A DNA stretch of 64,000 nucleotides from Crocinitomicaceae bacterium. GTDB taxonomy: Bacteria; Bacteroidota; Bacteroidia; Flavobacteriales_D; Crocinitomicaceae. The translations under genes and the position numbers were made by a program. Location of the stretch: positions 124,001-188,000 of the forward strand of contig JAGYIR010000010.1 in NCBI GenBank assembly GCA_018402525.1. The letters run 5' to 3'. Below, piece after piece: positions 772-29,798 of this stretch; the stretch's first letter is position 1, and each line of letters begins with the position of its first letter. Under the pieces are notes generated by a model. The model saw nothing but the letters and a program-made list of their open reading frames with translations. It searched no databases and was not told the origin of the DNA.

Positions 772-3526
772 TTACAAATTCAATTTTTTTCTGACTGCTG
801 AATGCACGCATGCTGCTATAGAATCCCATTGTCCATCGGCTTCGAATTGGAACTTGTATCCAGAAATGATGTGTGCCATGAGGGAAGGCAGGGGATCCCT
901 TGGTGTGTGGCTCCATGATGCGAAGCATTCACATATACCTGCAAAATGGGATGTAGCAGCCAGGGGATTGGCATTGATGACGCTGCACAAGCCTTCCTGA
1001 GCATCCTGCTTTTCCTCTCCATCTCGCAACCCCCTGAGGGCAGCACACCACCCACCCATGAAAGTAGATGCATGCGGGGCTATTGTGTCAGGTGTAGATT
1101 TACCAATTTGCCCCAAACATACAGCTGCATTTTCAACTAGACTTCTCGGAAGCGCGCCGACAGGGGCTGTGAGGATTGGCAATAGTCGATCAAGTGATAT
1201 CATGGCAAATTGAGCAACATCTTGAGAGGAGCACATCTTTGCAATAACTCCTAATGCCCATACGGCATTATTGCAGGCGTCAATATTCTCTCCTGTTATA
1301 TTTTCTGGCTGTATGCATTCCAAAATAGCTTCCATGAGTGGAGAGAGAAAGGGTAAGAGTTCAAGCATGCAGGCATCTGCCAAGTCACCAACAAGTCCAA
1401 AGACACTTTGTCGTAATGCAGGACTTGAATGCACGGAAACCTTGACCAATAGCGATCCTAAGGAGCTTGAAGAAAATAAAGGGGCAATGGATGTGCCCGC
1501 TCCTTGAATAATCCCCCCCAAGGTATCTAGCGTATGCTCTATGAATTTGACCTGTTCCTCTGGGTCAACAGCTCTGGCATCTCCAGCGTGATAATACCCT
1601 TCCGCCAAAGTCATGCACGTATGGAATATATTTTCAGCATAAGGCACAAGTGACGATCCAGCCTCTGACCCAACTGTCGCAATGCAGTCCAACAATGGCA
1701 GAATCTCAGGGTCTTCAGCAGAGACTGGAGAGGCTTTGAATGAATCCAGCTTACCAAGGAGCGAGGGCAACAGAATCGATGCATATTCTTGCCTCTGTAT
1801 TATATCAGAACTTGATAATGCTATGATACTTATTGAATCGTAGACTGCTCTCAACGATCCTTTCCCGTAATGCTGGAGTCCAAATGATAAGGCACCAAAA
1901 ATCTCTGCCATGTACGCTTTGATCAATACCGGATCTTCCTCGACTAGGGTTGCCAAGCTACTACATGCAGCTATCTGGACTATTTTATTGTGGTCTTTTA
2001 CGACTCTCTCTATGATACCGCGAGTCACTCTCTCTAATAAAGTTCCATCACCCTCTGACTTTTTGCTATACACATGCCTTGAATACCTTGACAACGTCCA
2101 ACAAGAAATACAGCGAACCATCGGCCGCTGATCAACAAGACCAGGCATAACAGCAGATATAATAGCATGAATATGCTCCTTTAAACCAGCATGGCACCCA
2201 TTGCTTACAGCCCCAAGTGTCAAGATGGCAGCTTCCCTTGCTTTCCAACTCTCTTGTTGCAGGTTACTTTCTACAACAGGAAGCAGTGTCGGAAGAATAT
2301 CATCCCCTAGAAGCCCTGAAAGCATATCGAGACCAGCCGCAGAGCTTTTCCGCAGATTCCATTCCACATCTGCCTCCTGATCCTTCTCCATGTCTCCATC
2401 CTTGCCAGGAGCATGGGACACTGATGCATGAAGATGAGGCCGCAGCTCGGATGCATTCTCATTTCTCACTTCCTCGTTTGCTTCTGCCTCGGCAACTTGT
2501 TCATCAAAATCATCAAACTCCATATTTTTCACCAACAATGGAATGATTCGTGGCACAAATGGTTTGAGCAAATCACCATCAAAACCTGCTTCAGGAAACA
2601 CCGACCAGAATTCAGACGCTTCGATAGCAACATCATGATGTGGGTCTTGCATCGCATCAATCATGTATTGAATTAGAAGCGACAATTCCCCCTCAAGTTG
2701 GGTTGGCGCCAACTCGGACAGATGAATCAATCCAATGCACACCACGCGTCTCACAGCAGCCTCTGGATGGCGCGCCAACGAGAACAACCCCGCCTTGTAC
2801 GCAGAGATCAACTCATCCATCTTTGACGATTGATTGAATAAAGCATAATTCAATACAGTGATGGATGCCACTTGAATATCCAAGGTAGCATTCCCCATCT
2901 GTGCCAGAACCAGTGGCAATAGACAATCATTGGCACTTTCAGAAGCTCCCAAATCCTCCTCCATCCTCCCCGGAGAATCTTCCCATGCCTTTTGAATAGC
3001 ATTTAATGCACCATCCATGGCACACTCATCCCCTGAATTCAAACACACCTGCAAGTCACGCAGCAGAGATGGCCACTTTGAAAACCCCAGGCAAGACGTC
3101 AATGTCGCCACACAAGTTGCAGCCGTATGCCTCAACGTTCGATCGGTACATCTGAGCCCATGAGACAGAATCACATGAACTGTTTCAACCACATCAGGTG
3201 CCGTATTCGAAAGAATACCATTCCTCAGGCTATTCTTAAGAAACAGTCCTGCACTTTGCCGCACAGGCCCAGCAAGCCCATCCCCTGAAACCAATATATA
3301 TGCCAAATAGCTTGGGTAATCCCGGTATGAGCTACACCATTCATCCAAATGGGATAATATCTACACATAAAGGCATCCATCGTCTATAAAAGCATCATCC
3401 AACCCCTACCAGTCGATCCAAACACTACCGCACCTGGTGCTGATTGGCCCCTGGGCTCTGAAACTCATTCAGCAACCCTGCAACCCTCTGAATGCAGGCA
3501 TCATCTGGTTTCCAACCACCATCCAT
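772..3526 (-). CDS. TNPO1: Transportin-1 type importin (karyopherin beta-2), two exons
   Basis: Nuclear import receptor that binds PY-NLS cargo and RanGTP. Exon 1 is 3434..3526 and encodes MDGGWKPDDAC...SPGANQHQ, resembling the MEWKPD...ESQSPD start of human transportin. A 73 bp GT-AG intron (3361..3433) follows, and exon 2 (772..3360) begins ILSHLDEWCSSYRDYPSYL. The assembled protein is 893 residues, close to the family's roughly 890. It is built of HEAT repeats throughout. An acidic loop (FDDFDEQVAEAEANEE) sits just before the conserved WNLRKSSAAGLDML block, and MVRCISCWTLSRYSRHV follows, all diagnostic of transportin over other importins. The C-terminal NPLAATSHFAGICECFASW block also fits. 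The uninterrupted frame alone would begin at a non-ATG codon, which is why the upstream exon was sought. Confidence 0.92.
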
Positions 3527-3860
3527 TTCTCAATCAGAGGTGATCCATGCACTAGAGAATTCGCCCATTCTATTCTTCTGTATCCGCAATGCGTCTGTAG
3601 AATACTCTGTACATGCACAGGCACAGGCACAGGCACAGTCTTCTTCTCTAAATATGTCAATAATAAAACAATAGTATAGCCTGGTAGATCACAGTTCCAC
3701 CCTGCATGGCTCCAGGAATGGAGGATGCATTCCTTGAATAAAATAGCATCCCTTTTCTTCAGAATACCTGTGCCATCGTCAAGGATGCAGGTATTTCAAT
3801 TCATCAGATGTATATATAGTAGTATAGAGTATTTATTTATTGGTGGTTTGATTGGAAAGG
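3527..3860. promoter_or_regulatory. Divergent intergenic region between transportin and SF3B2
   Basis: This 334 bp gap separates two divergently transcribed nuclear genes and must hold both 5' ends. A TATA-like stretch, TATATATAG, lies at 3811..3819, 42 bp before the SF3B2 ATG. A four-copy hexamer repeat (GCACAG) lies at 3615..3638. Promoter function is inferred from position only. Confidence 0.4.
3615..3638. repeat. Microsatellite, four tandem copies of GCACAG
   Basis: Four perfect hexamer copies lie in the non-coding gap between transportin and SF3B2. Simple repeats of this kind are common in nuclear DNA. Confidence 0.85.
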
Positions 3861-5795
3861 ATGGTGAGAGCGACGAGGAGTCGCAGGGGTGCTTCAAAGA
3901 AGGCAGACAATGACAGTGACCCCAAGGTGGAGGAACCTGCGACAAGAAGGAGCAGGAGGTCGACAACAGTCAATACAAATGAAAAGAAGGGGGAAGGAGC
4001 GAGAGAGAAGGGGAAGAATGCACCTCGGGGGGGTTTAAAAAAGAAATCTTCTCAGTCGACAAAGGTAAAACCCGAGAGCTCTGGTCATGAGAAACTGACA
4101 ATGGCACAGAAGAAAAATAGGAAGAAAAAGCTTCGAAGGGCTGCGAAGAGGGTGGAAAGGCAGCAGGGGGGTACGTCGTTCTCCGGTGGAAGGGATGCTG
4201 GGGAGAGCACTCGCGGTGATTTTGAGATTGAATACGTCGCTCCGCCTTCGGAGATGATTCTGGATACACTTAAAAATATAGATGCGGGTGGAGTAGATAT
4301 AAATCAAGATTCGGCTGTAATTGGGGAGTTTGCAAAGATTCTGGAGAGGTTTGGTCACCCCTCTTCTGCAGAGGAGGAGATGGCTGATGATCGTTTGCGA
4401 TCTGACGGTGAAGGCCAGGGCGATGGGGAGGGTGTGTTGCATCAGGAAAAGGATGAATCACGGGGGTCAAGAAGAGAGAAAAGGGGGAGGAAGAGGATGA
4501 CTATTGGAGAGTTGAAGCAGTCCTCTTTGGTGCCTGAAGTTGTAGAGGTGTGGGATGCTACGGCAATGGATCCTCTGCTGTTGGTTTATCTCAAGGCATA
4601 TAGAAATACAGTTCCGGTTCCTCGGCATTGGAGTCAAAAGCGAAAGTATCTCCAGGGGAAGAGGGGGTTGGAAAAGCCTCCGTTCAAGCTTCCTGCTTTT
4701 ATCGCTGCGACTGGGATTGGTGAGATGAGACAGGCATATCTTGAAAAGGCAGAAGCGCAAAATATAAAATCAAAGGGGAGGGAGCGAACTCAGCCTAAAA
4801 TGGGCAAGCTGGACATTGATTATAGAGTGCTGTATGATGCATTCTTCAGGCATCAGCAAAAGCCTTTGCTATCAAATCCTGGGGAATTGTACTACGAAGG
4901 AAAGGAGTTTGAAGCTGCACATTTGAAGAAGTTTAGGCCTGGAATTTTAAGTGACTCGTTATCTGAAGCTTTGGGAATCCAGAGAGGGGCACCTCCTCCT
5001 TGGCTTGTGGCAATGCAACGATATGGTCCACCACCCAGTTATACATCTCTTCGGATCCCAGGATTGAATGCTCCCATTCCACCGAATGCACAATTTGGAT
5101 ATCATCCTGGAGGCTGGGGAAAGCCACCTGTGGATGAATTTGGCAATCCAATCTATGGAGATGTGTTTGGGGAGCAGATGGATGATGATGAGGAAGAAGA
5201 CATCCACGTGGTACATTGGGGAGAAGCTGACGTAGAGGAGGAGGAGGAAGAAGAAGAAGAAGAGGAAGAAGAATCTGATAGCGATGAAGATGCTGAAGAA
5301 GAAGAGGAGGAGGAGGAGGAAGAGAAGACTAATGTAGAGGGTGATCAGGCAGAAGGGATGGCAGGCCACATCTCAGAGCTGGAAGCCCCAGGCGAGGTGC
5401 AGATAAGGAAGGAAGACAGTTCTGATCGCCAACCGAAGCAGCTTTATCACGTGCTAGAGCAGAAGAAGGTCGACATGACCAGCACTGGAATCATGGGCTC
5501 GGACCATGTCTACAATGTCCCAGGCAAGAAAGGTCTCTCTAGTGTGGCAGCAAAAAGGTTAGAAGCACTACGACGAGGTATTCCAGAGGATTATGAAATT
5601 TCGATTGACCCTGCTGACCTGGAATCCCTTGATGACGCGTCTCTGAAGGAATTATATGATGCCAAAGTAGCAGAGCATAGAGCCTCATCTGGTACTCAGG
5701 ATTTCTCGGATTTGGTCGCTGCAAGAGCTGCTTCTGATAAGAAACGGAAAGCTGGGGATGCTTCTAGTTCAAAAGATAAAAAATTCAAATTTTAG
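3861..5795 (+). CDS. SF3B2: Splicing factor 3B subunit 2 (SF3B2/SAP145/Cus1)
   Basis: Component of the SF3b complex of U2 snRNP, contacting pre-mRNA near the branch site. The first in-frame ATG is at 3861 (MVRATRSRRG), giving 644 residues in a single exon. The N-terminal region is highly basic. Residues about 220 to 330 form the DUF382 core (VPEVVEVWDATAMDP, FKLPAFIAATGIGEMRQAY, KLDIDYRVLYDAFFRHQ). A PSP motif follows at about 358 to 407 (RPGILSDSLSEALGI, PPPWLVAMQRYGPPPSYTSL, IPGLNAPIPP). A run of Glu/Asp sits at about 459 to 489, and the conserved tail has DMTSTGIMGSDHVYNV. The order and motifs match SF3B2 of other eukaryotes. No intron was needed. Confidence 0.93.
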   Translation: MVRATRSRRGASKKADNDSDPKVEEPATRRSRRSTTVNTNEKKGEGAREKGKNAPRGGLKKKSSQSTKVKPESSGHEKLTMAQKKNRKKKLRRAAKRVERQQGGTSFSGGRDAGESTRGDFEIEYVAPPSEMILDTLKNIDAGGVDINQDSAVIGEFAKILERFGHPSSAEEEMADDRLRSDGEGQGDGEGVLHQEKDESRGSRREKRGRKRMTIGELKQSSLVPEVVEVWDATAMDPLLLVYLKAYRNTVPVPRHWSQKRKYLQGKRGLEKPPFKLPAFIAATGIGEMRQAYLEKAEAQNIKSKGRERTQPKMGKLDIDYRVLYDAFFRHQQKPLLSNPGELYYEGKEFEAAHLKKFRPGILSDSLSEALGIQRGAPPPWLVAMQRYGPPPSYTSLRIPGLNAPIPPNAQFGYHPGGWGKPPVDEFGNPIYGDVFGEQMDDDEEEDIHVVHWGEADVEEEEEEEEEEEEESDSDEDAEEEEEEEEEEKTNVEGDQAEGMAGHISELEAPGEVQIRKEDSSDRQPKQLYHVLEQKKVDMTSTGIMGSDHVYNVPGKKGLSSVAAKRLEALRRGIPEDYEISIDPADLESLDDASLKELYDAKVAEHRASSGTQDFSDLVAARAASDKKRKAGDASSSKDKKFKF

Positions 5796-5864: not shown

Positions 5865-6709
5865 ATGAGTGCGGTATTTGCCCTCTCGAGGGCATTCATC
5901 TACCAGCCGAAGAGGGTTTGGACTTCGTATTTGCAAATACTAGAGAAAAAGCCAGTCCAGACGAAGATATCCACATCTATAGCGGCAGCTTTTCTGGGAG
6001 ACACGATTGCTCAAAGGCTGAGCAAACGCAAGGAAGACGTTAAATGGAGGTACTGTGTGCTTATCTGCCTATGATTTAAATATGTAAACGATAGGATTGG
6101 GTGACTTGAGTGTCGATGGCGCTTTTAGCGTAACCATGGGCTTTCTTGGTTGAACTTTTGGTCTCAGTTGACCCACGGGGTTTATGTATCTGCAGACCCG
6201 ATTGGGGAAGAACTGCTCGCCTCTGTGCCTTTAATGGCGCAATGGGATTATTTGGACACTACTACTATGCTATACTAGATAAATCCATAGTGATTGGGAC
6301 AGCCAAAAGTGCCATCACTGTCCTGGCCAAAGTTGGCATTGATCAGTTCATCTTTGCGCCAGTGTGTACCATGTTATTTTATCTATTCAAGGTATCGACA
6401 GAAGGGCGCCCATCGGAGTTTGTTGGAGAGATGCAGGCAAAGTATGTGCCAACTCTTCTGGCTGGCTGGAAACTGTGGCCTGCAGCCCATGTTGTGAATT
6501 TCCTTTTCATTCCCAATCAGCACAGGATTCTGTATACGAACATTATTTCTGTGGGTGGGACGTATATTTTATCTATGGCTGCAAGCGGCGACCATACGGC
6601 TCAGAAAAGGGATTCAAAAACGAAAAAGGCAAAGAAATCTGAACGCATACTTGAGGCACAGAGTCCGAATGAAGTACTTTTCGACGGTGTCACGGTCAAG
6701 ATTGATTGA
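5865..6709 (+). CDS. Mpv17/PMP22 family membrane protein (2 exons)
   Basis: Small integral membrane protein of the Mpv17/PMP22/Sym1 family, whose members sit in peroxisomal, mitochondrial or plastid membranes. Exons 5865..6049 and 6196..6709 are joined by a 146 bp GT-AG intron and give 232 residues. The splice restores Arg in KWRPDWGRTARLCAFNG; both flanking frames are blocked by stops, which supports the intron. Family hallmarks are SYLQILEKKPVQTK near the N-terminus, GDTIAQRL, GHYYYAILDK, KVGIDQFIFAP and GWKLWPAAHVVNFLFIP. The exact family member and organelle cannot be read from the sequence. A lysine-rich tail follows the last membrane segment. The gene converges on the next gene with 79 bp between the stops. 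Confidence 0.88.
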
Positions 6710-6788
6710 TGTAGATTATAATTGGGTTGGTAACAGGGTAGTAATAAATATATGTATCATTATTATTGGGTAAGTAGGGTATGGGCTG

Positions 6789-13210: not shown

Positions 13211-13545
13211 ATGGCAGAACACAATCTTCCACATGGAACCTCGGGTCTGATCGCCGAACCGCCAAGCGGATCTCGACAGTCAGCCAAATGGGCCGTGTGG
13301 GGTATACCAGCAACTACGGTTGCCACAGTATACCAAATATTCAAGGATATGCTCCCTGAGGACTCCCTGGTGAGTATCGAACACATTGAACGGAAAAGGA
13401 TTGGACGCCCCAACCGTTCTAGATCTCGGCAGATCTCGAGAGAGATCCGCCCAACGGTCATGTTCGTCATTACCACCAGTGCCCCTCGAAAGGAGTCGCT
13501 CCCTGCCCGCACACAGTTCCCTTTGGGGAGAGTATACTGTCGTCG
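13211..13545 (+). CDS. Possible first exon of a eukaryotic gene, cut off by the junction
   Basis: An ATG at 13211 opens MAEHNLPHGTSG and runs 53 codons to DMLPEDSL. A consensus 5' splice site, GTGAGT, follows at 13370, in phase 0. A CAG acceptor candidate lies near 13435. The rest of the gene would lie beyond the point where bacterial sequence begins, so no product can be assigned. The segment SAKWAVWGIPATTVATVYQIF could be a membrane helix. Support is the start, the splice signal and the position only. Confidence 0.3.
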
Positions 13546-13560
13546 GAACCTTTTCTTGGG
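13535..13560. other. Junction between eukaryotic and Bacteroidota sequence
   Basis: To the left lie intron-containing nuclear genes. To the right, the reading frame of bacterial holB is recognisable from about 13552 (FLGKPGYGG) but its first part, which should encode roughly 40 residues, is absent. Beyond this point codon use, base composition (visibly more AT-rich) and gene content change at once. The exact base cannot be fixed without a reference; it lies within a few tens of bases of 13545. No insertion sequence, tRNA or repeat marks the join. Confidence 0.85.
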
Positions 13561-14580
13561 AAACCTGGATATGGAGGGCTTCCTTTAGCGCTTGCCTTTG
13601 TGCAGTTTCTGTTGTGTGAGAACAGGTTGGAAGAGGATAGTTGTGGTGCGTGCCCTTCCTGTGTGAAAATATCTAAAAACCAGCATCCAGACGTTCATTT
13701 TTCGTTTCCAACAGTTCAAACAATTAGTCAAAATTCTGACGCACTTTTAAAGGAGTGGCGAGAAATAATAGCTGAGAACCCCTATTTTGATTTAAATGCA
13801 TGGATAAAAAAATCAGATGAAAAGGAGCGAAAACCGATTATAAGTGTTCACGAAAGTCAACAAATTATAAAAAAATTAAGCTTGAGATCCTTTGAGGGAG
13901 GATACAAGGTGATGATTATTTGGTGCGCAGAAGAGATGAATGTTGCTTGTGCCAATAAGCTGTTAAAAATAATTGAAGAACCGCCAGCAAGAACGCTTTT
14001 TATTCTACTGGCAGAATCCCAAGATAAATTACTTCAAACGATATTGTCTAGAACGCAAACGACATTAGTACCGAGACTTTCCATCGACGACATGCGAAAT
14101 TTTATGGTTGAACAAGGTTTAGCAAGTAAGAGTGTCGCTGAAAGTATTGCTTCACGATCAGATGGTAATTTGATAGAGGCACTTCAGTTGGTTACTGAAA
14201 ACGCTGAGAAGGACGAAAATTATGTGTTATTTACTCAGTTAATGCGGGTTTGTTATCGAAAAAACGTAATTGACATGATGGAGTGGAGTGAAGAAGTAGC
14301 CGCCACAAGTAAGGAAAGTCAAAAGGTGTTTTTGAGCTACTCCCTGCACATGTTTAGACAAAGTATTTTGCGTAACTATACTGAGAATCATCTTACCCGG
14401 GTTTCCGAAGAGGAAAATGGATTTTTGGAAAATTTTGCGCGATTTATAACAGGAAACAATGTTCAAGACTTTTTGCAGGCGTTTAGTGATGCACATTATC
14501 ACATTGAAAGAAATGCGAACAGTAAAATTTTATTTACCAACCTTTGTTTTCAGGTAATGCGGTTCATTCATGCGGCCTAA
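13552..14580 (+). CDS. holB: DNA polymerase III subunit delta' (N-terminus missing)
   Basis: Clamp-loader delta' subunit of the replicative polymerase. The visible part begins FLGKPGYGGLPLALAFVQF, the remnant P-loop region of delta', which lacks the Walker lysine as is usual for this subunit. A Cys cluster follows (LLCEN, SCGACPSCVK), fitting the AAA+ zinc module. KLLKIIEEPPARTLFIL and ILSRTQ correspond to the Walker B/sensor region and the degenerate SRC motif. About 40 N-terminal residues are missing because the eukaryotic sequence joins here; a GTG at 13600 is in frame but is internal to the family alignment. It is followed by ricT and gldH, a frequent neighbourhood in Flavobacteriia. Confidence 0.87.
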   Translation, partial: FLGKPGYGGLPLALAFVQFLLCENRLEEDSCGACPSCVKISKNQHPDVHFSFPTVQTISQNSDALLKEWREIIAENPYFDLNAWIKKSDEKERKPIISVHESQQIIKKLSLRSFEGGYKVMIIWCAEEMNVACANKLLKIIEEPPARTLFILLAESQDKLLQTILSRTQTTLVPRLSIDDMRNFMVEQGLASKSVAESIASRSDGNLIEALQLVTENAEKDENYVLFTQLMRVCYRKNVIDMMEWSEEVAATSKESQKVFLSYSLHMFRQSILRNYTENHLTRVSEEENGFLENFARFITGNNVQDFLQAFSDAHYHIERNANSKILFTNLCFQVMRFIHAA

Positions 14581-14688
14581 TAAGCATGAAGAAAAGTTGT
14601 TAAAACGTTGTCGTTAATTCAATAGAGGCGCCAAATGATTTTAGAAGTAATTTTATGTTTACCTTTATCGTAAAGTAAAGAGAAAACT

Positions 14689-15966
14689 ATGGCATGTACA
14701 AGTTGTAGCAGTGGCGGTGGGATACCTGGAGGTTGTCAAAACAACGGCAATTGTAGTTCTGGAGGCTGTAACAAGCTTGAGGTATACGACTGGTTGGCAA
14801 ATGTTTCGCTTCCAAGTGGACAGAAACCATACGATATCGTTGAAGTTAGATTTAAGAACAGTCGAAAGGAATTTTATAAAAACATTAAAGAAATAGCACT
14901 TCAAGCTGGAGATGTCGTTGTGGTTGAAAGTTCACCTGGCTTTGATGTTGGCGTCGTTTCGGTTGTAGGTGAGTTGGCGCGGATTCAAGTCGCAAAAAAG
15001 GAATCAAACTTTAAACCAAACGAAGCGAGAAAGATCAAGGGTAAAGCTGAACAGGAGCATATCGACAATTGGATAAAGGCACGATCACTTGAAAAAGAAG
15101 TGATGTATAAATCAAGAACGCTGGCCGTGAATCTTGGTCTTCAAATGAAAATTTCAGATGTTGAATATCAAGCGGACCTTTCAAAAGCAACGTTTTATTA
15201 TACTGCAGAAGGTCGGGTGGATTTCAGACAATTGATTCGCGACATGGCAAATGAATTTAAGATTCGCGTTGAAATGAAACAAATTGGGTCCCGTCAAGAA
15301 GCTTCTCGTTTGGGTGGTATTGGATCGTGTGGTAGAGAGTTATGTTGCTCGACATGGTTGACAGATTTTAGATCTGTTTCAACCTCCGCAGCAAGATATC
15401 AGCAATTATCACTGAACCCACAAAAGTTGGCTGGGCAATGTGGTAAGCTTAAATGTTGTTTGAACTACGAGCTCGACATGTACTTGGATGCGCTTAAGGC
15501 TTTCCCGAAGGGGGAGTTGAAGCTTAGAACAGAAAAAGGAACAGCGATGTATGTTAAAACGGATGTGTTTAAACAGCAAATGTGGTATGCCTATGATGGT
15601 GGTACGGGGTCAACATTGGTTCCGCTTAGCCCAGAACGAGTGCGGGAAATTTTACGCTTGAACAAGGAGGGAAAGAAACCTGTCGATTTAAAGGAATACA
15701 TAGAAGTCGAAAAAGTTGTTGAATCAGGTTATGAGAATGTCGACGCACAAGATAGCTTGACGCGTTTTGAACATATTTTCAAAAACAAGAAGAAAAAGCG
15801 ACCGAATAATAATAGAAAGGGTGTCGGATCAAATCGATCCGTAGAAGGAAACAGGTCAAAACCAACAGTAGAAGCGAAAGTGCCAGAGAATAAGCCGCCC
15901 CAAAATAAAAGGCGCAATAACAGAAGAAAGAAGAACCCCAACAATCCTAACAATGAGGCAAAATAG
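14689..15966 (+). CDS. ricT: PSP1-domain protein, RicT (YaaT) family
   Basis: 425 residues. The N-terminus is Cys-rich (MACTSCSSGGGIPGGC then NCSSGGCNK), followed by the PSP1 domain (DIVEVRFKNSRKEFY, GDVVVVESSPGFDVGVVS). The core motifs GSCGRELCCSTWL and GQCGKLKCCLNYE carry the conserved Cys that bind Fe-S clusters in the Bacillus RicAFT complex, where the protein acts in RNA maturation and development. The extended lysine/asparagine-rich tail after about residue 365 is typical of Bacteroidota versions. The function in this phylum is not established. The last 14 bp overlap the start of gldH, which suggests one transcript. Confidence 0.85.
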   Translation: MACTSCSSGGGIPGGCQNNGNCSSGGCNKLEVYDWLANVSLPSGQKPYDIVEVRFKNSRKEFYKNIKEIALQAGDVVVVESSPGFDVGVVSVVGELARIQVAKKESNFKPNEARKIKGKAEQEHIDNWIKARSLEKEVMYKSRTLAVNLGLQMKISDVEYQADLSKATFYYTAEGRVDFRQLIRDMANEFKIRVEMKQIGSRQEASRLGGIGSCGRELCCSTWLTDFRSVSTSAARYQQLSLNPQKLAGQCGKLKCCLNYELDMYLDALKAFPKGELKLRTEKGTAMYVKTDVFKQQMWYAYDGGTGSTLVPLSPERVREILRLNKEGKKPVDLKEYIEVEKVVESGYENVDAQDSLTRFEHIFKNKKKKRPNNNRKGVGSNRSVEGNRSKPTVEAKVPENKPPQNKRRNNRRKKNPNNPNNEAK

Positions 15967-16423
15967 TTGGTTAATGGTTGTTGCACTTTTTGCAATGCTA
16001 GGGTGCGGAAAGGCACCTGTTTATGAAAAGTCGTATTCATTCAAAAACAAGGAGTGGATCAGAGAAGTTAAGCCTTTTTTTGAAGTAGAAATTACAGATA
16101 TAAAAAAGGAATATAACTTCACCATACTCTTAAGAACAACGACGGACTATAATTTTAGCAACCTGTGGATTTTCCTTAAAACAGAAGCTCCTGATGGAAC
16201 AACTGCGCGGGAACCATTTCAAATTCACCTAGCAAGCCCAGACGGAGCGTGGTTGGGAAACAAAACAGGAACTATTGTGGAAACGGCACTTTATTTCAAA
16301 GAAAGAAAGTTACCATTAAAAGGAAAATATAAGTTTACTATAGAGCAGGGGATAACATCAGCTCAAGTAGATGAAGTACTAGATATTTCTTTTATTGTCG
16401 ATGAGGTTGTAAAAGGCAATTAA
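15953..16423 (+). CDS. gldH: Gliding motility lipoprotein GldH
   Basis: 156-residue lipoprotein with a signal peptide and lipobox (FAMLGCGK). The family is required for gliding in Flavobacterium, with gldK-N and other gld genes, though its exact role is unknown. Recognisable segments are YEKSYSFKNKEWI, ILLRTTTDYNFSNLW and LPLKGKYKFTIEQ. It follows ricT with a 14 bp overlap. Its stop interlocks with that of the opposite-strand DUF2490 gene over TTAA. Gliding itself also needs the gldB-N and spr genes, which are not in this window. Confidence 0.85.
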   Translation: MRQNSWLMVVALFAMLGCGKAPVYEKSYSFKNKEWIREVKPFFEVEITDIKKEYNFTILLRTTTDYNFSNLWIFLKTEAPDGTTAREPFQIHLASPDGAWLGNKTGTIVETALYFKERKLPLKGKYKFTIEQGITSAQVDEVLDISFIVDEVVKGN

Positions 16424-17079
16424 AATTTATAAGAGTAAGACACTGAGAAGACATGTCTCAAGCTTCTGGAATAGTCTTGGAGCCATTTGTCAACAAGGTA
16501 CTTTATACTTACACCATGTGGTCCATTCAGTTCTAATTTTGTTCCTAAAATAAACCGGATTTTATTTAGTTCACGGCCATTTTCACCGTATACAGGGTTA
16601 TAAAATATTTCAGCTCCTACGGTAGGTGAAAAAATGCTGTTTTTAAAATCACACTCAAACTCTGGTTTAAATCGAAGGGCCTGGTCAAAATCGGCATCAT
16701 AGCTCGTGGAGTTAAGTCGGTTAAATGAATATTGGTAGCGCAACCGTAATTCAATCTTTAGACGATTAATTTTCTCGCTGAACTCAGCATTAACATTCAC
16801 CCTGTGTGAAAGCTTGTAATTAGTGTATTTATTCTTATCAATCACCAGGCGGTAATCAACTGACGGTTCAAACCATTTGTTGACTTTGTATTTTAGTTTT
16901 GCTTGTGGAAAGAAAGTTTGAATACCTGAATTGTTGAACCGGGTATTTAATTCTGTTGCCCAACTTAAGTCCTTGGTTAACTTTCCTTTTACCCCAAGTT
17001 CTGTCCATACCATGAAGTCATGTTGTGAAAGTACCCATTGAGAACAGGCAAGAAAAAATATAAGTACAACAGACCTCAT
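16420..17079 (-). CDS. DUF2490 family outer-membrane protein
   Basis: 219 residues with an N-terminal signal peptide (VVLIFFLACSQWVLSQ). The rest alternates short hydrophobic and polar strands and ends in an aromatic residue after VSYSYKF, as outer-membrane barrels do. DUF2490 hallmarks are HDFMVWTELGVKGKL near the start and RLRYQYSF in the middle. The function is unknown. It is co-directional with the lipoprotein at 17079..17474, overlapping it by one base. Confidence 0.75.
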   Translation of the reverse strand: MRSVVLIFFLACSQWVLSQHDFMVWTELGVKGKLTKDLSWATELNTRFNNSGIQTFFPQAKLKYKVNKWFEPSVDYRLVIDKNKYTNYKLSHRVNVNAEFSEKINRLKIELRLRYQYSFNRLNSTSYDADFDQALRFKPEFECDFKNSIFSPTVGAEIFYNPVYGENGRELNKIRFILGTKLELNGPHGVSIKYLVDKWLQDYSRSLRHVFSVSYSYKF

Positions 17080-17474
17080 TAATCAATAACTGTTATTGTT
17101 CCAACATCAACGGTGGACTTTTTATCCGTAATCTCCACGTTTGTGATGAGCGCCTTTTTTCCACCGGGACAGGTGTTACACTTTTCATAAACAAATAGTT
17201 GATAAGTGCCTTCTTCTAGATAATCGAACTTAAAACTACCGTCGTATGAAGTTTCAACATCATCATCAAAGGAAACCCCATCTGTGCCATAAATAATGTA
17301 TACATCAAACTTTTGTGCGTCATATTCAGTGATAATATTTCCCGCGGCATCCTTGTCAATAATGTATACCTTTCCAATAATAGAAGATGAGCCACCGGGA
17401 CCCTCCACTTTCTTACACCCACCTAGAAATAGAGGAACAGCAAGAAAAAAAAGAAAAAATTTGAGAGTTTTCAT
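17079..17474 (-). CDS. Small lipoprotein with a carboxypeptidase-regulatory-like fold
   Basis: 131 residues. The signal peptide and lipobox are PLFLGGCKK. The mature part reads as a single beta-sandwich domain (SSIIGKVYIIDKDAAGN, SYDGSFKFDYLEEGTYQLFVYE) of the type often found in cell-surface lipoproteins, with a CNTCPGGKK loop. It shares a stop/start base with the downstream DUF2490 gene, so the two are likely co-transcribed. No specific function is assignable. Confidence 0.7.
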   Translation of the reverse strand: MKTLKFFLFFLAVPLFLGGCKKVEGPGGSSSIIGKVYIIDKDAAGNIITEYDAQKFDVYIIYGTDGVSFDDDVETSYDGSFKFDYLEEGTYQLFVYEKCNTCPGGKKALITNVEITDKKSTVDVGTITVID

Positions 17475-17604
17475 AGATAATCAAGTGTTAAATAATGCAA
17501 TAAGAGCACAACCTTTTTTGTAAAAAATACGTTACGAATATACAATAATGCCATAATATTTCTTAATATTGATATAACATTCCGTTAATTTTAAAACGAA
17601 CTAC

Positions 17605-20598
17605 ATGAAAACTTTCGCTATAAAGCAGCCCTTTAATCAATTAAACAGATCGCTCTTTATTCTTTTTATCCTACTTTCTCTAACGGGAAATACTCAAGTA
17701 ATCATTAATGAATACTGCGTTTCCAATATGAATGGATATGTAGATAACTTTGGTGAGCGTGAAGATTGGGTGGAGTTATATAACGTCACCGGTGCCCCTG
17801 TAGATTTAACGGGGTACTACCTTTCTGACAAGGCAGGGAACCCTCTAAAGTGGCAAATTCCGAGCGGAATAATTCCAGCGAATGGTTTTATGATGGTAGT
17901 TGCTTCAAGAAGAGATGTGGTAAGCGGAACAGAACTACACCCAAATTTTAATTTAAAGCAAACAAGAAACGAGTGGATTATTCTTTCAAATAATCTAGGA
18001 AATTTAGTAGATGAAATTCAAATGACTCAAATGACCAAATCAGATCACTCTGTGGGTCGAACAACGAATGGAGCTGCTACGTGGAGTTTGTTTACCACAC
18101 CAACGCCAGCTGCCAACAACGTCGGAGGACAAAATTTTTATGAGCCAACACCGACCATGGACTTGGCACCAGGTTTTTATGTAGGACCGCAAGTGGTTTC
18201 TTTGGCGTGCTCAAACCCAGGAGCAACAATTCGTTACACACTCAATGGCTTTGAACCAACCGCCGCTTCGCCAATTTATTCAGGACCGATTCCTATTAAT
18301 GCTACCACTGTAGTTAGAGCAAAAGCGTTTGGAGCAAACCCTCCAAGTTTTAACGAGACGAATACCTATTTTATCGATGTCACGCATAATGTACCTGTTG
18401 TTTCTGTGAGTGGTCAAGAAGTTGCTACTTTGCTAGGAGGAACCCAAATTGAAATACAAGGTGCATTAGAACTTTTTGAAGAAGACGGAACATTTGTTGA
18501 TGAAGGAGAGGGAGAATTCAATAAACACGGAAATGATTCTTGGGCTTATCCTCAAAGGGGATTTGACTTTATATTGAGAGATCAATTTGGTTATAATTCA
18601 GACTTGCGTCATGAGATTTTCCCCGAAAAAGACAGGGATGAATTTCAACGAATTATGTTGAAACCAGGAGCAAGCGATAACTATCCTTTTGAGAGTGGTG
18701 GAGCTCATATTCGTGATGCGTTTATTCACACCCTTTCCATTCGATCTGATTTACTTTTGGACGAGAGAACCTGGCGACCAGCAATTGTTTATTTAAACGG
18801 TCAATATTGGGGAGTTTATGAAATTAGAGAAAAAGCAGATGATCATGATTATACCAATCACTACTATGGACAAGACAAGTTTAATCTACAGTATTTAAAG
18901 ACATGGGGAGGAACTTGGCAAGAGTATGGTGCCCCAAATGCACAACCTGATTGGAATGCGCTTCGTAATTATATTTTAACGAATAACATGGCACCGGGAC
19001 CGGCGTTTGACAATGTGGATACTTTGTTGAACTGGCGTTCACTTGCCGACTACTTTATGATTAATTCATACACGGTGAATATGGATTGGTTAAACTGGAA
19101 CACAGCCTGGTGGAGAGGAATGGATCCAACAGCGACGAAGAAAAAATGGCGTTACGTATTGTGGGACATGGACGCAACGTTTGGACATTATGTAAACTAC
19201 ACCGGTATTCCCGATGTGAGTCCAAACGCAGATCCATGTAATGCGGAGAACCTTCCAAACCCTGGGGGTCAGGGACACACAGACATTTTAGAAAAGTTAA
19301 TAGATGAAAATCCAGCGGTAGAACAATATTACATTACTAGATATATTGACCTTATTAACACCTATTTTTCATGTGACTATATGAACCAGTTGCTAGACAG
19401 TATGCTCAATGAAATTACACCTGAAATGCCGGCGCAAATTGCACGCTGGGGCGGTTCGATGGCTGGTTGGAACAACAACGTTCAGGATTTGAGAGATTTT
19501 ATAGATGCAAGATGCTTGGCGCTTGAACAAGGGTTAATAGATTGTTATGACTTAACAGGACCTTACGATGTTACATTTGATGTGAGTCCAGTTGGTGCCG
19601 GAGAGATTAAAGTAAATTCAGTTTGGGCACCATTCTACCCATGGTCGACCCAATACTTTGGAGGAATATCAACGAACCTGGTCGCTGAGGCAAACCCAGG
19701 CTATATTTTTGACCATTGGGAATATACGGTCGGACCAATGAACAGTGCTATTACAGAAGACACTAACAGTATAGAAATTAATGCGCCCGAAACCATCGTT
19801 GCGGTATTCATTCTTGATACGCCACCAGTAGACTCAGATGGTGATGGCTTATATGATCATGAAGAAACTGGATGTACTGACCCGCTCAATCCAGATACAG
19901 ATGGGGATGGGATTAACGACGGTGATGAGGTTGCGAATGGTACAGACCCGTGTGACCCATGTGATCCGAATTTGAATGCAGGTCCATGTGATCAAGATGG
20001 AGACGGACTAACAAATGACGAAGAAATTGCACTAGGAACGGATCCAACAAACCCTGATACGGATGGAGATGGATTTACAGATGGAGATGAGGTAACTAAT
20101 GGAACAAACCCGCTAAACCCATGTGATCCTGATGATTCGTCAGAGGATTGTCAAATTGACTCGGACGGTGATGGTTTAACAGACATTGAGGAAAACTTAC
20201 TTTGCACGAATCCTAATGATCCAGACACGGATGGCGATGGCATTAATGATTATGATGAAATAGTAAACGGTTCAGACCCATGTGACCCATGTGACCCTGT
20301 CGAGACAGGAATAGACTGTGTAACAGGAGTCCACATTCCGACAGGGTTCTCTCCAAATGGAGATGGACAAAATGACATGTATACGGTGATTATAGGACTC
20401 GATGTTCTTAATTTTAAATTCTTTATCTATGATCGATGGGGGAATAGAATGTTTCACTCGGATCAAAAAGGATTTGAATGGGATGGGACAATTAATGGAG
20501 AACCTTGTAATGCAGGAGTTTATCCATACATGATGGAGGTTACGTACATTAACGGTTCATCAGAACTTAAGTCTGGTAACATAACATTAATGAAGTAG
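17605..20598 (+). CDS. Secreted CotH-kinase surface protein with lamin-tail, TSP3 repeats and type B sorting domain
   Basis: 997-residue modular cell-surface protein. After a signal peptide (about 1 to 31) come a lamin-tail domain (about 32 to 150, [12 protein letters not shown]), a chitobiase-type C-terminal domain (about 175 to 255), a CotH kinase domain (about 265 to 650; [16 protein letters not shown] carries the DxD metal site), a bacterial repeat-type domain (about 655 to 735), calcium-binding TSP3 repeats rich in [12 protein letters not shown] (about 737 to 905) and a gliding-motility-associated C-terminal domain ([16 protein letters not shown] to the end), the type B sorting signal of type IX secretion. 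CotH proteins phosphorylate proteins in Bacillus spores. The porP gene begins one base after the stop, so the pair is probably one operon in which the PorP protein serves this cargo. Confidence 0.85.
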
Positions 20599-20599
20599 G

Positions 20600-21649
20600 A
20601 TGAGAAAGAGATATTTAATAATTCTGTTTGCGCTAATCGGCAGTCAATCGACTGCGCAAGACCTGCATTTTGCGCAGTCTTCGCAAACACCATTGTTTAT
20701 TAATCCAGGTGCGACAGGTGTGTATGATGGCTGGGAACGGTTTATTATTAACCATAGGAATCAGTGGTTGGGAGCTACAACGCAGTTTATGACCACGGCT
20801 GTTGCCGCAGATGTCAACTTTTTTAAATCGGAACTTGGTGATAAAGCCCATATTGGTTTAGGGGTGTTATTCTTTAATGATATCGGAGGTGATTCAAACT
20901 TTGGAAATCAAACAGGTGCGATATCCGTATCAGGAATTTTACCGATGGGAAGATCTGGGCATGTACTATCTGCGGGAATTCAAGGTGGTTTGGGTATGCG
21001 TAAAGCTACTTTGGCAGGGGTTTCTTTTATGTCGCAATGGGACGGGTCTAGTTTTAATCCACAAGTTGCAAGCGGAGAAGATAATACACTGTCTTCTTTC
21101 ACATACCTGGATGCATCTGCGGGGATTCACTATGTTTTTAACGGTGGAAGGAATAACTTTTCGAGAAAAAACAACCTTAAATTTACATTGGGTGTAGCAG
21201 GATACCACTTAAACGCTCCAGAAATGCGCTACGTAAATGGTTCGGGAGATAGATTGCACCGAAAATATGTAGGGAACATCGGTATTGTTTCAGATATTGG
21301 CACAAGTCGCATGTCGATTGATGCAAACGCGGTTCAATTTGTACAAGGGGGACACTATGAAACGTTGTTTGGGATGATGTTACGTTACCGATTTGAAGAC
21401 AACACAAAGCTAACAGGACATTCGCAAGACGCCTTCATTGGATTTGGTTGTTATGCACGATTGCGCGATGCTATTATTCCATCAGTCATGATCGACTGGA
21501 GAGGGTTTCAGTTTGGAATATCTTATGATGTGACGGTTTCTGCACTTAGAAGAGCCTACGGAGGTGGGTCTTTAGAGTTTTCACTCGCTTATACGAACAG
21601 AAATACAGCGCTGTTTAAAACGAGAAAAAAGACATCAAAAAAATTCTAA
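20600..21649 (+). CDS. PorP/SprF family type IX secretion membrane protein
   Basis: 349 residues. The N-terminus after the signal peptide is DLHFAQSSQTPLFINPGATG, then RFIINHRNQW, the PorP/SprF signature. The protein is an outer-membrane barrel associated with the type IX machinery. In Flavobacterium, SprF is dedicated to the type B cargo SprB, and here the gene sits one base downstream of a type B cargo (CotH protein), so the same pairing is likely. The C-terminus is lysine-rich (KTRKKTSKKF). Its stop overlaps the opposite-strand small gene by 4 bp. Confidence 0.88.
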   Translation: MRKRYLIILFALIGSQSTAQDLHFAQSSQTPLFINPGATGVYDGWERFIINHRNQWLGATTQFMTTAVAADVNFFKSELGDKAHIGLGVLFFNDIGGDSNFGNQTGAISVSGILPMGRSGHVLSAGIQGGLGMRKATLAGVSFMSQWDGSSFNPQVASGEDNTLSSFTYLDASAGIHYVFNGGRNNFSRKNNLKFTLGVAGYHLNAPEMRYVNGSGDRLHRKYVGNIGIVSDIGTSRMSIDANAVQFVQGGHYETLFGMMLRYRFEDNTKLTGHSQDAFIGFGCYARLRDAIIPSVMIDWRGFQFGISYDVTVSALRRAYGGGSLEFSLAYTNRNTALFKTRKKTSKKF

Positions 21650-21894
21650 ACGGGTTTATTTGTTAGTCTTTTGAAAAACTGAAAGATTTTTTTCCTAAAC
21701 AGAAAGGCAAGCAATAAATAGGGAACTGCCATTAAATACAAGATTCCAGTATTAATAGTGGATCCAAAGGAAGCTTCATCAAGTTCACTTCCTTGTTCTG
21801 CAAGAAGTTTGCATTGAGAACAACCCTGACCAAAAGTCATGTCCACTATTAAAATGGCAACGATAAGTAAGGTGTATTTTTTCCAACTTTGCAT
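21646..21894 (-). CDS. Small membrane protein, unknown function
   Basis: 82 residues with an N-terminal hydrophobic segment (LLIVAILIVDMTFG, probable signal peptide), a CSQCKLL motif and a C-terminal transmembrane helix (ILYLMAVPYLLLAFLF) followed by a basic tail. Short proteins of this layout are common in Flavobacteria. Its stop interlocks with that of porP. No function can be inferred. Confidence 0.6.
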   Translation of the reverse strand: MQSWKKYTLLIVAILIVDMTFGQGCSQCKLLAEQGSELDEASFGSTINTGILYLMAVPYLLLAFLFRKKIFQFFKRLTNKPV

Positions 21895-22013
21895 ACAACA
21901 AAATTACATAATTTATTCGCTTAAATGGTAATTTTTCTTGGGTCAACCGCGCATCAAAGAGCCAAGGGTAAGAACGAACTACTCTATGGTTACGGAGAAT
22001 CAAAAAAATCGAA

Positions 22014-22021
22014 TAAATTTG
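22014..22021 (+). promoter_or_regulatory. Candidate Bacteroidota -7 box
   Basis: TAAATTTG matches the TAnnTTTG consensus of the Bacteroidota housekeeping sigma factor. It is only 4 bp upstream of the ATG at 22026, so the transcript would be nearly leaderless or start within the gene. No clear -33 element is seen. Confidence 0.35.
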
Positions 22022-22025
22022 TAGT

Positions 22026-23039
22026 ATGAAAAAATCGATCATTTATGTGTTGCTAAGCAGTTTTATTTTCGTTGGACTGACGTCGTGTGAGAGTAGCACT
22101 GAAAATCAAACAGTGGAGCAAGGTGAAAGGAATTTGGACAGTCTGTTGCTGATTACACCAAATGATGTGGAGTTACTGCTAGAAAGAGGAAACAAGTATT
22201 TTGCGCGTTATGAGTATGATTTAGCACTGAATGATGGGGCAAAGGCGTTTAGACTGGACTCGAATAGTATAGAAACCCGACTGCTGTATGCGGAAGTATT
22301 GAATAACCGAGAACAACGCACAACCCAGGAGGTTGAAATCGCACAAAAACACTATAAGTGGATAATAAAGAAGGATGCGAAACACCTAAGAGCGCTTGTT
22401 GGGCTAGCCGGAACATATGGTTTCCAGCAAGATTTTGAGAAAGTTTTTCTTTATGCAAACGAAGCATTGAGAATTGATTCCAAGTATAGAGATGCATATG
22501 TAATCAAAGGATCCACTTATTTACTTCTTGGAAAAGTTGATCTAGCAAAATCGTCCTATCAAACAGCCATTCAACAAGATCCAGAATTTTTTGAAGCATA
22601 CTTTTTATTGGGACAAATTTACCAATCAGAGAACGATCCATTGTGCATAGAATATTTCAATACAGCTCACGAATTGTATCCAGAACAAATGGAATTTACC
22701 TATCAATTGGCTTATTCTAAACAGATGTTCGATCAATATGACTCAGCAAAGGAAATCTATAGAAAAATGACGAAAGACTCGAGTGATCTTTACGTTTCCC
22801 GCGCATTGTTTCATCAAGGGTATATTCAGCATTTTGTGGATAACAATATAGATAGCGCAAAGTTTTTTTACATCAGAGCTATAGAAAGAGAACCTCGAAT
22901 GTATGAAGCGTGGCACAATTTGGGCATGTGTCATGAAGCAAAGGGAGATCGATTGAATGCCATTCAATCGTATGCAACAGCGCTGAAGCACAACCCTGAA
23001 TTTACCCTTTCCCGAGAGGCTGCAGAGCGACTTCGTTAA
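22026..23039 (+). CDS. TPR-repeat lipoprotein
   Basis: 337 residues. The signal peptide ends in the lipobox GLTSCES. At least seven tetratricopeptide-like repeats follow, for example RDAYVIKGSTYLLLGKVDLA, FFEAYFLLGQIYQSEN and YEAWHNLGMCHEAKGDR. It is probably a periplasmic or inner-leaflet scaffold, with no known partner. The TAA overlaps the next gene's ATG by one base, so the two are translationally linked. Confidence 0.75.
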   Translation: MKKSIIYVLLSSFIFVGLTSCESSTENQTVEQGERNLDSLLLITPNDVELLLERGNKYFARYEYDLALNDGAKAFRLDSNSIETRLLYAEVLNNREQRTTQEVEIAQKHYKWIIKKDAKHLRALVGLAGTYGFQQDFEKVFLYANEALRIDSKYRDAYVIKGSTYLLLGKVDLAKSSYQTAIQQDPEFFEAYFLLGQIYQSENDPLCIEYFNTAHELYPEQMEFTYQLAYSKQMFDQYDSAKEIYRKMTKDSSDLYVSRALFHQGYIQHFVDNNIDSAKFFYIRAIEREPRMYEAWHNLGMCHEAKGDRLNAIQSYATALKHNPEFTLSREAAERLR

Positions 23040-23632
23040 TGCGGATTCAACCCAAATACGTTCAACTTGTCGGTGATGCGGTTATACCGCTATTGGGTTT
23101 GTTTCTATGGGATTGGAGCCTTTATTTTATTCTTTTGTTTTATTTTTTGGACATCTTAGTCAATGAGCTAATTGTTCATTTAAAGTCGCGCAGAATAGTA
23201 CAGTTCTACGAACAGAAAGCATCTACAAAAAGGTGGATATTGTATGGCTTTCTTAGTGCGGCGGTGTTGACGATTGCTTTCCTTATGATTCACTTTTCTA
23301 TGCGTTTCATCACTCCAGAAATTAATTTTAGTGATGAGCTAGTTGCATTTTGGAACTACGAAGAGATGGGAATAAAACAAGGTTATGTGCTGTTACCCTT
23401 GGTCCTTTTGGTTGGAGTTCAGCAGTACAGAATGACGTTTTTGATGGTGGGAAAATATAGGAACTTAAGTTTATCCAATCTTTGGAAGGATCACATTCAA
23501 GCACTTATTTTCACGTTGGCGTTTACAGGTATTGTAATAGGAATAAGTTATTTTTTCCAGCTTTCGGAAATGATTTATGTATTAGGAATTGTTGCCGTAT
23601 CCACGGTGTACAAACTGCGGTTTAGCGAATAA
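23039..23632 (+). CDS. Hypothetical membrane protein
   Basis: 197 residues with about six hydrophobic helices (for example LYFILLFYFLDILV, FLSAAVLTIAFLMIHF, ALIFTLAFTGIVIGISYF) and little soluble sequence. I recognise no family. It overlaps the TPR gene by one base, and its stop directly abuts the stop of the YbhN-type gene on the other strand. Confidence 0.6.
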   Translation: MRIQPKYVQLVGDAVIPLLGLFLWDWSLYFILLFYFLDILVNELIVHLKSRRIVQFYEQKASTKRWILYGFLSAAVLTIAFLMIHFSMRFITPEINFSDELVAFWNYEEMGIKQGYVLLPLVLLVGVQQYRMTFLMVGKYRNLSLSNLWKDHIQALIFTLAFTGIVIGISYFFQLSEMIYVLGIVAVSTVYKLRFSE

Positions 23633-24805
23633 TTACTTTTTATATCCAGTGCGTTTTATCCATCCAGGCAACAAGAATGCTCCAATAAACAAGTAAGGGA
23701 AATAAGAAATCAAACGCCAAAGTACGGCAAGAGCAGCAATCAACAGAACGGATGAACTAAACGGAGCTAATAATTCACCGAAGGCATACTCTGCAACACC
23801 ACTTCCTCCAGGAGTTGGACTAACCAGCATAAACAACCAAAGCACCAATTGTTTTCCAAGTACATGCATATTATCAATAAAACCGAGTGATAGAAACGCA
23901 TTTAGAATAGCGTTGATGACAAGGTAGCGTGAAATCCAACTTAAAAAAGTACTTCCGAATACGGCAAGCCAAAACCGAGGAGATTCCTTTTTGAAGATTT
24001 TTGCAGCTCGCTCAATGTCCTTTCCCCATTCAACCGCAATAAACTTCCAACGCTTCAAGAGGGGAAATCGAAAAATAAAGGTTAAGAAAATAGTGGCGAA
24101 GCGAGGAAACCAGAAGATTGTGAGGTAAAGAAGTAAACAAACCCCGAAAATTATTGAAAATCCAATCCAAAACCACCAAGAAAGAGCAAGGGAAGCGCCG
24201 TTTTCAACTGGAAATAACGTAGCGTGGGAAACAAACAGAAACACAAGTGGAATCATTAGTACAAAGAACAAATTATCCATGAAGGCAGTAATGATTACAA
24301 TTGCCGTAGCTCTTCCAAAAGGAATTGTTTCACGATTTAAAATGAACATTGCAACTGCTGCCCCACCAACAACGCCAGGAGAAAGCGCTGATGCAAATTC
24401 CCAAAGAAGAATGACATATAGCGAAGCTTTCCAACTCAATTGATGCTTCGTTAAAAGTCGAATGCGCACCATGTAGAAAAAATCACGACTCACCATAAAT
24501 ATCAGTGCCGCGATGAGCCAAAAGTATGTGTTGGAATCCCACACAATTGCCTTAAGACTTTCAACCGCACTCACACGACGAAATCCACCTTCTGTAGAAA
24601 GCAAAAACTCATTTTCATCAGCATAGTCTATGGTGTTATTGTTGTTGGCGTCTATCCATTTGTGAGTAGCCGCCTTCTCATCTGCAGCGATAAATTGTGT
24701 TGTACTGAGTCCACGGTACAACATCCATGAGGAAATAAGTAAACCAACGGCGATAGCCAATGCAATTTTCCATCCTTTAAATGCGCTATGGATCGGCGAC
24801 TTCAT
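23633..24805 (-). CDS. YbhN/AglD-type flippase-like membrane protein
   Basis: 390-residue polytopic protein of the lysylphosphatidylglycerol-synthase transmembrane (flippase-like) family. Family features are GVVGGAAVAMFIL and the C-terminal FMLVSPTPGGSGVAEYAFG, the PGGxG segment typical of these proteins. A non-membrane segment after the first helix carries an EF-hand-like loop (DANNNNTIDYAD), which is not part of the core family. The substrate is unknown. It is co-directional with, and one base away from, the Ig-like lipoprotein upstream. Confidence 0.75.
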   Translation of the reverse strand: MKSPIHSAFKGWKIALAIAVGLLISSWMLYRGLSTTQFIAADEKAATHKWIDANNNNTIDYADENEFLLSTEGGFRRVSAVESLKAIVWDSNTYFWLIAALIFMVSRDFFYMVRIRLLTKHQLSWKASLYVILLWEFASALSPGVVGGAAVAMFILNRETIPFGRATAIVIITAFMDNLFFVLMIPLVFLFVSHATLFPVENGASLALSWWFWIGFSIIFGVCLLLYLTIFWFPRFATIFLTFIFRFPLLKRWKFIAVEWGKDIERAAKIFKKESPRFWLAVFGSTFLSWISRYLVINAILNAFLSLGFIDNMHVLGKQLVLWLFMLVSPTPGGSGVAEYAFGELLAPFSSSVLLIAALAVLWRLISYFPYLFIGAFLLPGWIKRTGYKK

Positions 24806-24806
24806 T

Positions 24807-26366: not shown

Positions 26367-26818
26367 AAAAGAGTTAAATATTTTTCGTCAGTTGCATCAA
26401 AGGTAGCCAATTCATCGCTATCTATGTCTAACACCCCGATTACCACATTGTTTTTAATCAACGGCACAACAATTTCACTTTTCGAAGCTGAACTGCACGC
26501 GATATGCCCTGGAAACGCATCTACATCATCCACAATAATTGTCTGCTCTTGTTCCCAAGCACTTCCACAAACACCACGCCCTTTTTGGATTCTAGTGCAA
26601 GCAATAGGACCTTGAAATGGACCTAGCACTAATTCATCGGATTTCACAAGGTAAAACCCCACCCAAAAAAAGTTGAAGGTTGATTTGAGTGCAGCAGAAA
26701 CATTGGCCAAATTAGCAATCGCATCTGATTCGTCACCGACCAAAGCTTCTAGTTGTGGCAAGAGTTGTAAATACACTGTTGCCTTGTCGCCTTGAATTAT
26801 TTGTAAGTCTTCTGCCAT
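26339..26818 (-). CDS. msrC: Free methionine-(R)-sulfoxide reductase (GAF domain)
   Basis: 159-residue GAF protein that reduces free methionine-R-sulfoxide. It carries the three redox cysteines at residues 74, 84 and 108 (PIACTRI, GVCGSAW, HIACSSA), spaced as Cys84, Cys94 and Cys118 of the E. coli enzyme. The substrate-site motifs FWVGFYL and EIVVPL, and the closing IGVLDIDS, are present. ATG at 26818 is preferred over the in-frame GTG at 26821. The neighbours do not indicate a pathway. Confidence 0.87.
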   Translation of the reverse strand: MAEDLQIIQGDKATVYLQLLPQLEALVGDESDAIANLANVSAALKSTFNFFWVGFYLVKSDELVLGPFQGPIACTRIQKGRGVCGSAWEQEQTIIVDDVDAFPGHIACSSASKSEIVVPLIKNNVVIGVLDIDSDELATFDATDEKYLTLLCQWLVSVL

Positions 26819-26998
26819 CACTAATTTTTATACAAAAATGCTTTTTTTAAGGGGGATTCGCAATTTTTCTTTTGCAAAGCAAAAGGATATATAAGTTGTG
26901 TCCATGTGCATCAACAAATTAAAAAACACCATTTTGTAACTCACATTTTTTTGTATCTTAGGTAGTAAATTATTTACCTAACGAAAAAAAGTAACACT

Positions 26999-27721: not shown

Positions 27722-27742
27722 TTGAGTTAAATAAAAATCAAT

Positions 27743-27775
27743 AAAAAAGGGGTCAATTGCTTGACCCCAAAATTA
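27743..27775. terminator. Bidirectional intrinsic terminator
   Basis: Stem GGGGTCAA (27749..27756), loop TTGC, stem TTGACCCC (27761..27768), with an A run before and an AT-rich stretch after. It lies between the converging exonuclease and lipoprotein genes. Confidence 0.85.
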
Positions 27776-27793
27776 TTTTAAGAGAGTGATGTA

Positions 27794-28171: not shown

Positions 28172-28189
28172 AATAACTTTGTTTTAATG

Positions 28190-29797: not shown

Positions 29798-29798
29798 T

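Follow-up and report, generated by a model that had tools for sequence, protein, structure and literature searches.

A one-base switch from algal nuclear DNA to a Bacteroidota chromosome inside holB, almost certainly a sequencing or assembly error

Does a contig on which spliced algal genes run straight into a bacterial chromosome record a transfer of DNA between kingdoms, or an error of sequencing or assembly? The contig, C6 (603,575 bp), belongs to the assembly of an uncultured Fluviicola-like Flavobacteriales bacterium (3,157,214 bases in 19 contigs). The stretch analysed here, called the window, has 64,000 nucleotides, agrees in every letter with C6:124001-188000 and contains the junction. 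At face value, the contig would suggest a giant bacterium-to-alga transfer. We propose, with little room for doubt, that the junction is an artefact; that is, algal DNA making up C6:1-137550 has been falsely attached, and the native chromosome runs from C15:1-53861, on a second contig, into C6:137551 and onward.

An earlier note on this DNA had placed a sharp junction within 13535..13560. The junction is indeed there, between window positions 13550 and 13551 (C6:137550 and 137551), as located by a right-anchored comparison in which the match to C15 was extended leftwards until it failed. The first base to the left of 13551 already differs from C15, and a one-gap BLAST alignment adds three bases on C6. 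The comparison of GC content across the join that had been proposed gives a clear step: in 5-kb bins, GC is 0.43-0.47 over C6:1-135000 on the left versus 0.39-0.41 over C6:140001-200000 on the right, and 0.39-0.42 over all bins examined to the right of C6:140000. GC content, protein matches and the comparison with C15 all show that two unrelated genomes meet here and that the switch occurs at one base. The join is clean, containing no Ns. The assertion that it lacks a repeat holds for repeats of at least 12 nt, none of which spans it, and no tRNA and no Rfam family was found in the 64-kb window. The join thus carries neither of the signs of transposon or phage insertion looked for, a repeat of at least 12 nt or a tRNA target within the window, and a repeat or a tRNA as its cause was rejected. 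The join and the features to its left are as follows.

13550..13551, no strand: false join, almost certainly; 13550 is the last algal and 13551 the first bacterial base, from base-by-base comparison with C15
1..13550, no strand: nuclear DNA from a photosynthetic eukaryote, probably green-algal (GC step, eukaryotic proteins, intron); the last 13.5 kb of C6:1-137550
772..3526, minus strand: transportin (karyopherin beta-2) gene in two exons; the 3′ end is the stop of the open reading frame, and the 5′ exon starts from 3526
3361..3433, minus strand: GT-AG intron of transportin, 73 bp, leading to a spliced N-terminus
3852..5795, plus strand: gene for SF3B2, a spliceosome subunit (Pfam DUF382 and PSP; PDB match, E 6.8e-115)
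6146..6709, plus strand: gene for an Mpv17/PMP22 family protein (Pfam PF04117, E 2e-18)

The assignment of the left side to the nuclear DNA of a probable green alga is well supported as regards its algal nuclear nature. The transportin frame, 772-3348(-), matches a karyopherin beta-2 of solved structure over residues 40-869 of the latter (PDB; E 4.5e-126), and the first residues of the transportin are encoded at 3526..3434(-), beyond the 73-bp intron. The SF3B2 frame was taken from a TTG, and position 3852 is therefore the start of the open reading frame, which may differ from the true start. Elsewhere on C6, the V-ATPase A gene (E 7.3e-285) is interrupted by two GT-AG introns, one of 96 and the other of 70 bp. 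The gene for RbcS, the small subunit of Rubisco (E 8.6e-20 against a chloroplastic small subunit), lies right at the start of the contig; it encodes a leader, and its GT-AG intron of 321 bp contains in-frame stops. Other genes further left encode kinesin, chitin synthase, JmjC, MCM-binding, CRAL-TRIO and SMP-C2 proteins. Introns were seen in three of the five algal genes inspected (RbcS, transportin and V-ATPase A), which bears out the description of the genes left of the join as spliced and nuclear. In the other two, a DEAD helicase with its C-terminal motifs in the same frame and the kinesin, with its motor within one frame, no intron was seen in the parts inspected. The kinesin on C6 stands alone in the assembly; among 14 control genomes, one gave a match, and none exceeded the cut-off. 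Four of the seven left-side ORFs scanned in the window have no Pfam match at E 1e-3; among 20 long frames picked elsewhere in the algal block, three have none at E 1e-8.

In red-lineage algae, RbcS is encoded by the plastid. A nuclear RbcS with an intron points instead to a green-type plastid, so that an alga of the green type is likely, and a red-lineage source, for example a diatom, was dropped. No Rfam family was detected on C6:1-140000 at gathering thresholds, and the alga is thus not nameable by its rRNA. The algal side, tested over window 5000-13540, has no second copy in the assembly, C6 being its only location. The algal DNA also holds two adjacent RelA/SpoT-type genes at C6:34206-39665(-) (L008:14206-19665), with HD_4 plus RelA_SpoT domains; these are perhaps plastid stringent-response enzymes.

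To the right of the join, NCBIfam matches were found in seven of the eight ORFs scanned, including HolB, RicT, GldH, a T9SS sorting domain and PorP/SprF. The features on this side are as follows.

13551..14580, plus strand: holB (DNA polymerase III delta prime) without its first 89 coding bases (TIGR00678, E 9.8e-42)
14689..15966, plus strand: ricT-like gene (NF041131, E 8.7e-75)
15953..16423, plus strand: gldH-like gene for a gliding-motility lipoprotein (TIGR03511, E 1.8e-21)
13551..30687, no strand: redundant stretch of 17,137 bases, equal to C15:53862-70998 and stopping exactly at the end of C15
30688..64000, no strand: bacterial chromosome past the redundant stretch (GC and ORFs)

The match of the truncated HolB falls under the full-length cut-off, and the gldH-like gene, at 76.9 bits, lies just under the TIGR03511 cut-off of 78.7. 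Stop-to-stop frames of at least 150 codons cover 90.6% of C6:137551-200000; the figures are 70.1% for the algal part and 74.7% for C15, which is thus covered less densely overall than the bacterial part of C6. The block to the right had been described as more than 50 kb of Bacteroidota genes. The genes are of that kind; the length was an underestimate, since C6 extends 466 kb past the join, where the stretches examined were C6:137551-200000 and 583576-603575. A tandem repeat was also noted by self-comparison at window 52196-53060 (C6:176196-177060), with units of about 111 bp and offset matches that are 77-96% alike.

The break had been said to fall inside holB and to remove its N-terminus. 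It does so, taking away 29 codons and two bases, and the proposal to look for the missing part on another contig led to C15 (70,998 bp). Searched with 501 bases spanning the join, the assembly gives two hits, C6 itself and C15:53862-54111, which is exactly the bacterial half. The last 17,137 bases of C15 equal window 13551-30687 with zero differences. There, holB is intact at C15:53773-54891, beginning with an ATG at 53773 and extending for 372 codons, and the sequence shared with C6 begins within it at 53862. Upstream of the shared stretch, C15 carries 53.8 kb more, the gene's own upstream DNA, with GC per 5-kb bin of 0.33-0.41 over the contig. The part of this upstream DNA that was tested, C15:52000-53850, has no second copy in the assembly, apart from a 41-base match of 88% on C7. 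When window 28000-34000 was compared with the assembly, the match to C15 ended at 30687, exactly where C15 ends; the next 3.3 kb (window 30688-34000) are single copy on C6, apart from a 96-base match of 74% on C2.

Two left flanks for one bacterial sequence would resemble two alleles, as might be expected if the bacterium itself carried algal DNA in holB, through eukaryote-to-bacterium transfer or as a strain variant. However, such an insert would consist of nuclear genes with introns over more than 137 kb, with no return to bacterial DNA by the start of C6, where RbcS sits. It would also break holB, a clamp-loader gene of which the same assembly contains the intact form. We regard the chance of this as vanishingly small. 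The false attachment of the algal DNA, by comparison, follows from what is present: because the same bacterial stretch occurs in the same assembly with a proper unbroken neighbour, the switch from algal to bacterial sequence is almost certainly a sequencing or assembly error.

Relatives of the bacterium show which neighbourhood of holB is usual. A strong HolB match was found in 26 of the 29 relatives searched, and weak, paralogue-like matches only in the other three. The 36 holB loci compared consist of 15 from the same genus, four from the same order and 17 from a named-relative search, with some genomes seemingly entered by both searches; the named-relative search may leave out the window's own record. 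The closest named relatives are uncultured Flavobacteriales (67-70% identical in HolB), and most of the other 14 of the 17 named loci come from records titled Fluviicola, Flavobacteriales or Bacteroidota and are 50-61% identical. The usual right-hand neighbour, the ricT-like gene, follows holB within 1.5 kb in 33 of the 36 loci. On C15, the gene beside holB on the other side is divergent, encodes 417 residues and is rich in coiled coil. Of the 36 loci, 18 have this gene in divergent orientation no more than 1.5 kb from holB, as follows: 13 of 15 in the same genus (three of these 13 calls resting on short matches 0.85-1.1 kb away), none of four in the same order and five of 17 in the named set. 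The other 18 loci, including 12 of the 17 named ones, do not have it in the flank compared. The next two upstream genes of C15 recur with unchanged order and direction in L018-L021, the closest relatives. Neither of the two algal-side ORFs tested lies near holB in any of the 36 loci. With the neighbouring gene present in relatives and the upstream order kept in L018-L021, the sequence comparison indicates that holB has its native context on C15 and a false one on C6.

Two titles among the named loci deserve mention. In L023 (CP034120.1), titled Glaciecola amylolytica, HolB is 59% identical to the Fluviicola-like one; since Glaciecola is a gammaproteobacterium, the title looks wrong for the sequence. 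In L029 (CAMCYF010000002.1), titled Chitinophaga pinensis, the identity is 54%.

Together, the identical 17,137-base overlap, the intact holB and the gene order in relatives join C15 and the bacterial part of C6 into the native chromosome. The earlier preference for a chimeric assembly over transfer is thus supported by an identical bacterial stretch in unbroken context. The argument then offered, that a domesticated insertion would not look like an intact block of 50 kb, is reasonable, although weaker than the direct evidence of C15.

End overlaps of contigs are typical leftovers of unresolved forks in a read-overlap graph. The overlap comparison, which covered contig ends, C6:1-200000 and C15, found several. 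At 100% identity, C2 and C10 overlap by 6,745 bp and C3 and C6 by 4,627 bp; C10 and C11 overlap by 2,399 bp at 99.9%, and at 97% there are overlaps of 1,101 bp (C11 and C12) and 934 bp (C12 and C14). C4 and C8 have 1,510 bp in common at 99.8%, though not at their extreme ends, and this may be a repeat. These end overlaps suggest the contig order C2-C10-C11. At its right end, C6 has a bacterial GC and shares the identical 4,627 bp with C3, whose own GC is 0.39-0.40 at both ends; C6 thus continues there into C3, and an order C15-C6-C3 is suggested. C15, unlike the contigs that overlap end to end, ends within C6, which is just what a false extension of C6 would produce.

These overlaps bear on the most striking reading of the contig, namely, a real integration of at least 466 kb of Bacteroidota chromosome into an algal nuclear chromosome, with C15 as a piece of the free bacterium. 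A clean join without repeat or N would suit such an event, and an intact holB on C15 would be equally expected. However, integration needs C6:137551 onward to be present twice, and of the parts tested, only the 17,137-bp overlap is doubled. A nuclear insertion is expected to diverge from the free copy unless it is very recent; here the two copies show no decay and zero differences over 17,137 bases. Nuclear DNA should also flank the insert on both sides. In what was examined to the right of the join (C6:137551-200000 and 583576-603575, and both ends of C3), no second junction was found; at its far end, the contig overlaps C3, of bacterial GC at both ends, by identical bases. We therefore consider real integration very unlikely. 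What chance it keeps, an equally slight one, lies in a recent, undecayed Fluviicola-like insertion of at least 466 kb in a green alga, whose nuclear and free copies the assembler would have collapsed except for the 17 kb beside the join; such a collapse of identical copies keeps a little probability.

If the join is an artefact, how would it have arisen? Any account of the chimeric read, the platform and the assembler is an inference from the contigs. Most likely, shearing produced an algal and a bacterial fragment whose ends were then ligated to each other during library preparation. Because of one or a few chimeric long reads, the assembler would have met a fork at holB, taken the longer branch, which is algal, and set the true one aside as the separate contig C15. 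The arms measure 137 kb (algal) against 53.9 kb (unique C15), which may be why the algal one was kept, and C15 reaches into the shared sequence by perhaps the length of one read. At the binning stage, the 137 kb of algal DNA would finally have been placed with the bacterial genome. In one comparison, putative chimeric reads made up 0.02% of an ONT rapid library versus 3.17% of an ONT ligation library, chimeras being commoner where ligation was used and rare overall (PMC8495745). In long-read data, chimeric reads are reported to stitch distinct genomes together and to complicate the string graph (PMC12424758). A related possibility is that the assembler joined similar sequences by false overlap, without any chimeric molecule. 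The product would likewise be an artefact, with the same contigs; yet no repeat of at least 12 nt spans the join, which makes a chimeric molecule likelier, and the ungapped match to the bacterial parent stops at once at 13550, so that no sequence suited to an overlap was seen in this comparison, made on the bacterial side only. We hold false overlap to be extremely unlikely and prefer a chimeric molecule.

A second contig shows a similar break. The first ~9.9 kb of C4 have a GC of 0.69, which then drops to 0.41; in 200-base bins, the fall is from 0.74 at 9601 to 0.415 at 10001, inside a Fic-domain reading frame. In a relative (G026), there is a homologue that is 53% identical; the alignment begins with residue 1 of the fragment on the Bacteroidota side, and the homologue lies within an open frame of 360 codons. 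No unbroken second copy of this join was found in the assembly, and for that reason, C4 near 9.9 kb is graded a probable second cross-species chimera rather than a shown one. This would suit a data set in which chimeras arose more than once. The GC 0.69 part (C4:1-10000, L058) encodes an AAA ATPase with a winged-helix domain and an M20 peptidase.

The join inside holB, then, is almost certainly no real biological feature but an ordinary artefact, and it serves as a warning, given what the contig would seem to show. Algal nuclear DNA amounts to 137,550 bp, or 4.4%, of this bacterial genome record, and the quality figures supplied with the assembly (98.32% complete, 1.46% contaminated) do not reveal it. 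Kinesin, chitin synthase or RbcS drawn from the record would be false "bacterial" proteins. The mixture suggests joint sampling of the bacterium and an alga; it does not imply that the two are partners.

Large Wolbachia inserts occur in the nuclear genome of Drosophila (Drosophila ananassae), and there, as here, bacterial genes are contiguous with spliced nuclear genes. Unlike those inserts, the bacterial side of this join is identical to another copy and, where tested, single beyond the overlap, and its far end is tied to a contig of bacterial GC. The closer likeness is to chimeric long reads and the interspecies contigs they cause (PMC8495745, PMC12424758). The case presented here differs from those in being known from contigs, with the chimeric read itself unseen. 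As in those, two genomes meet abruptly at a single base within a gene, likewise without a mobile element or repeat, and here the true neighbour lies elsewhere in the same assembly.
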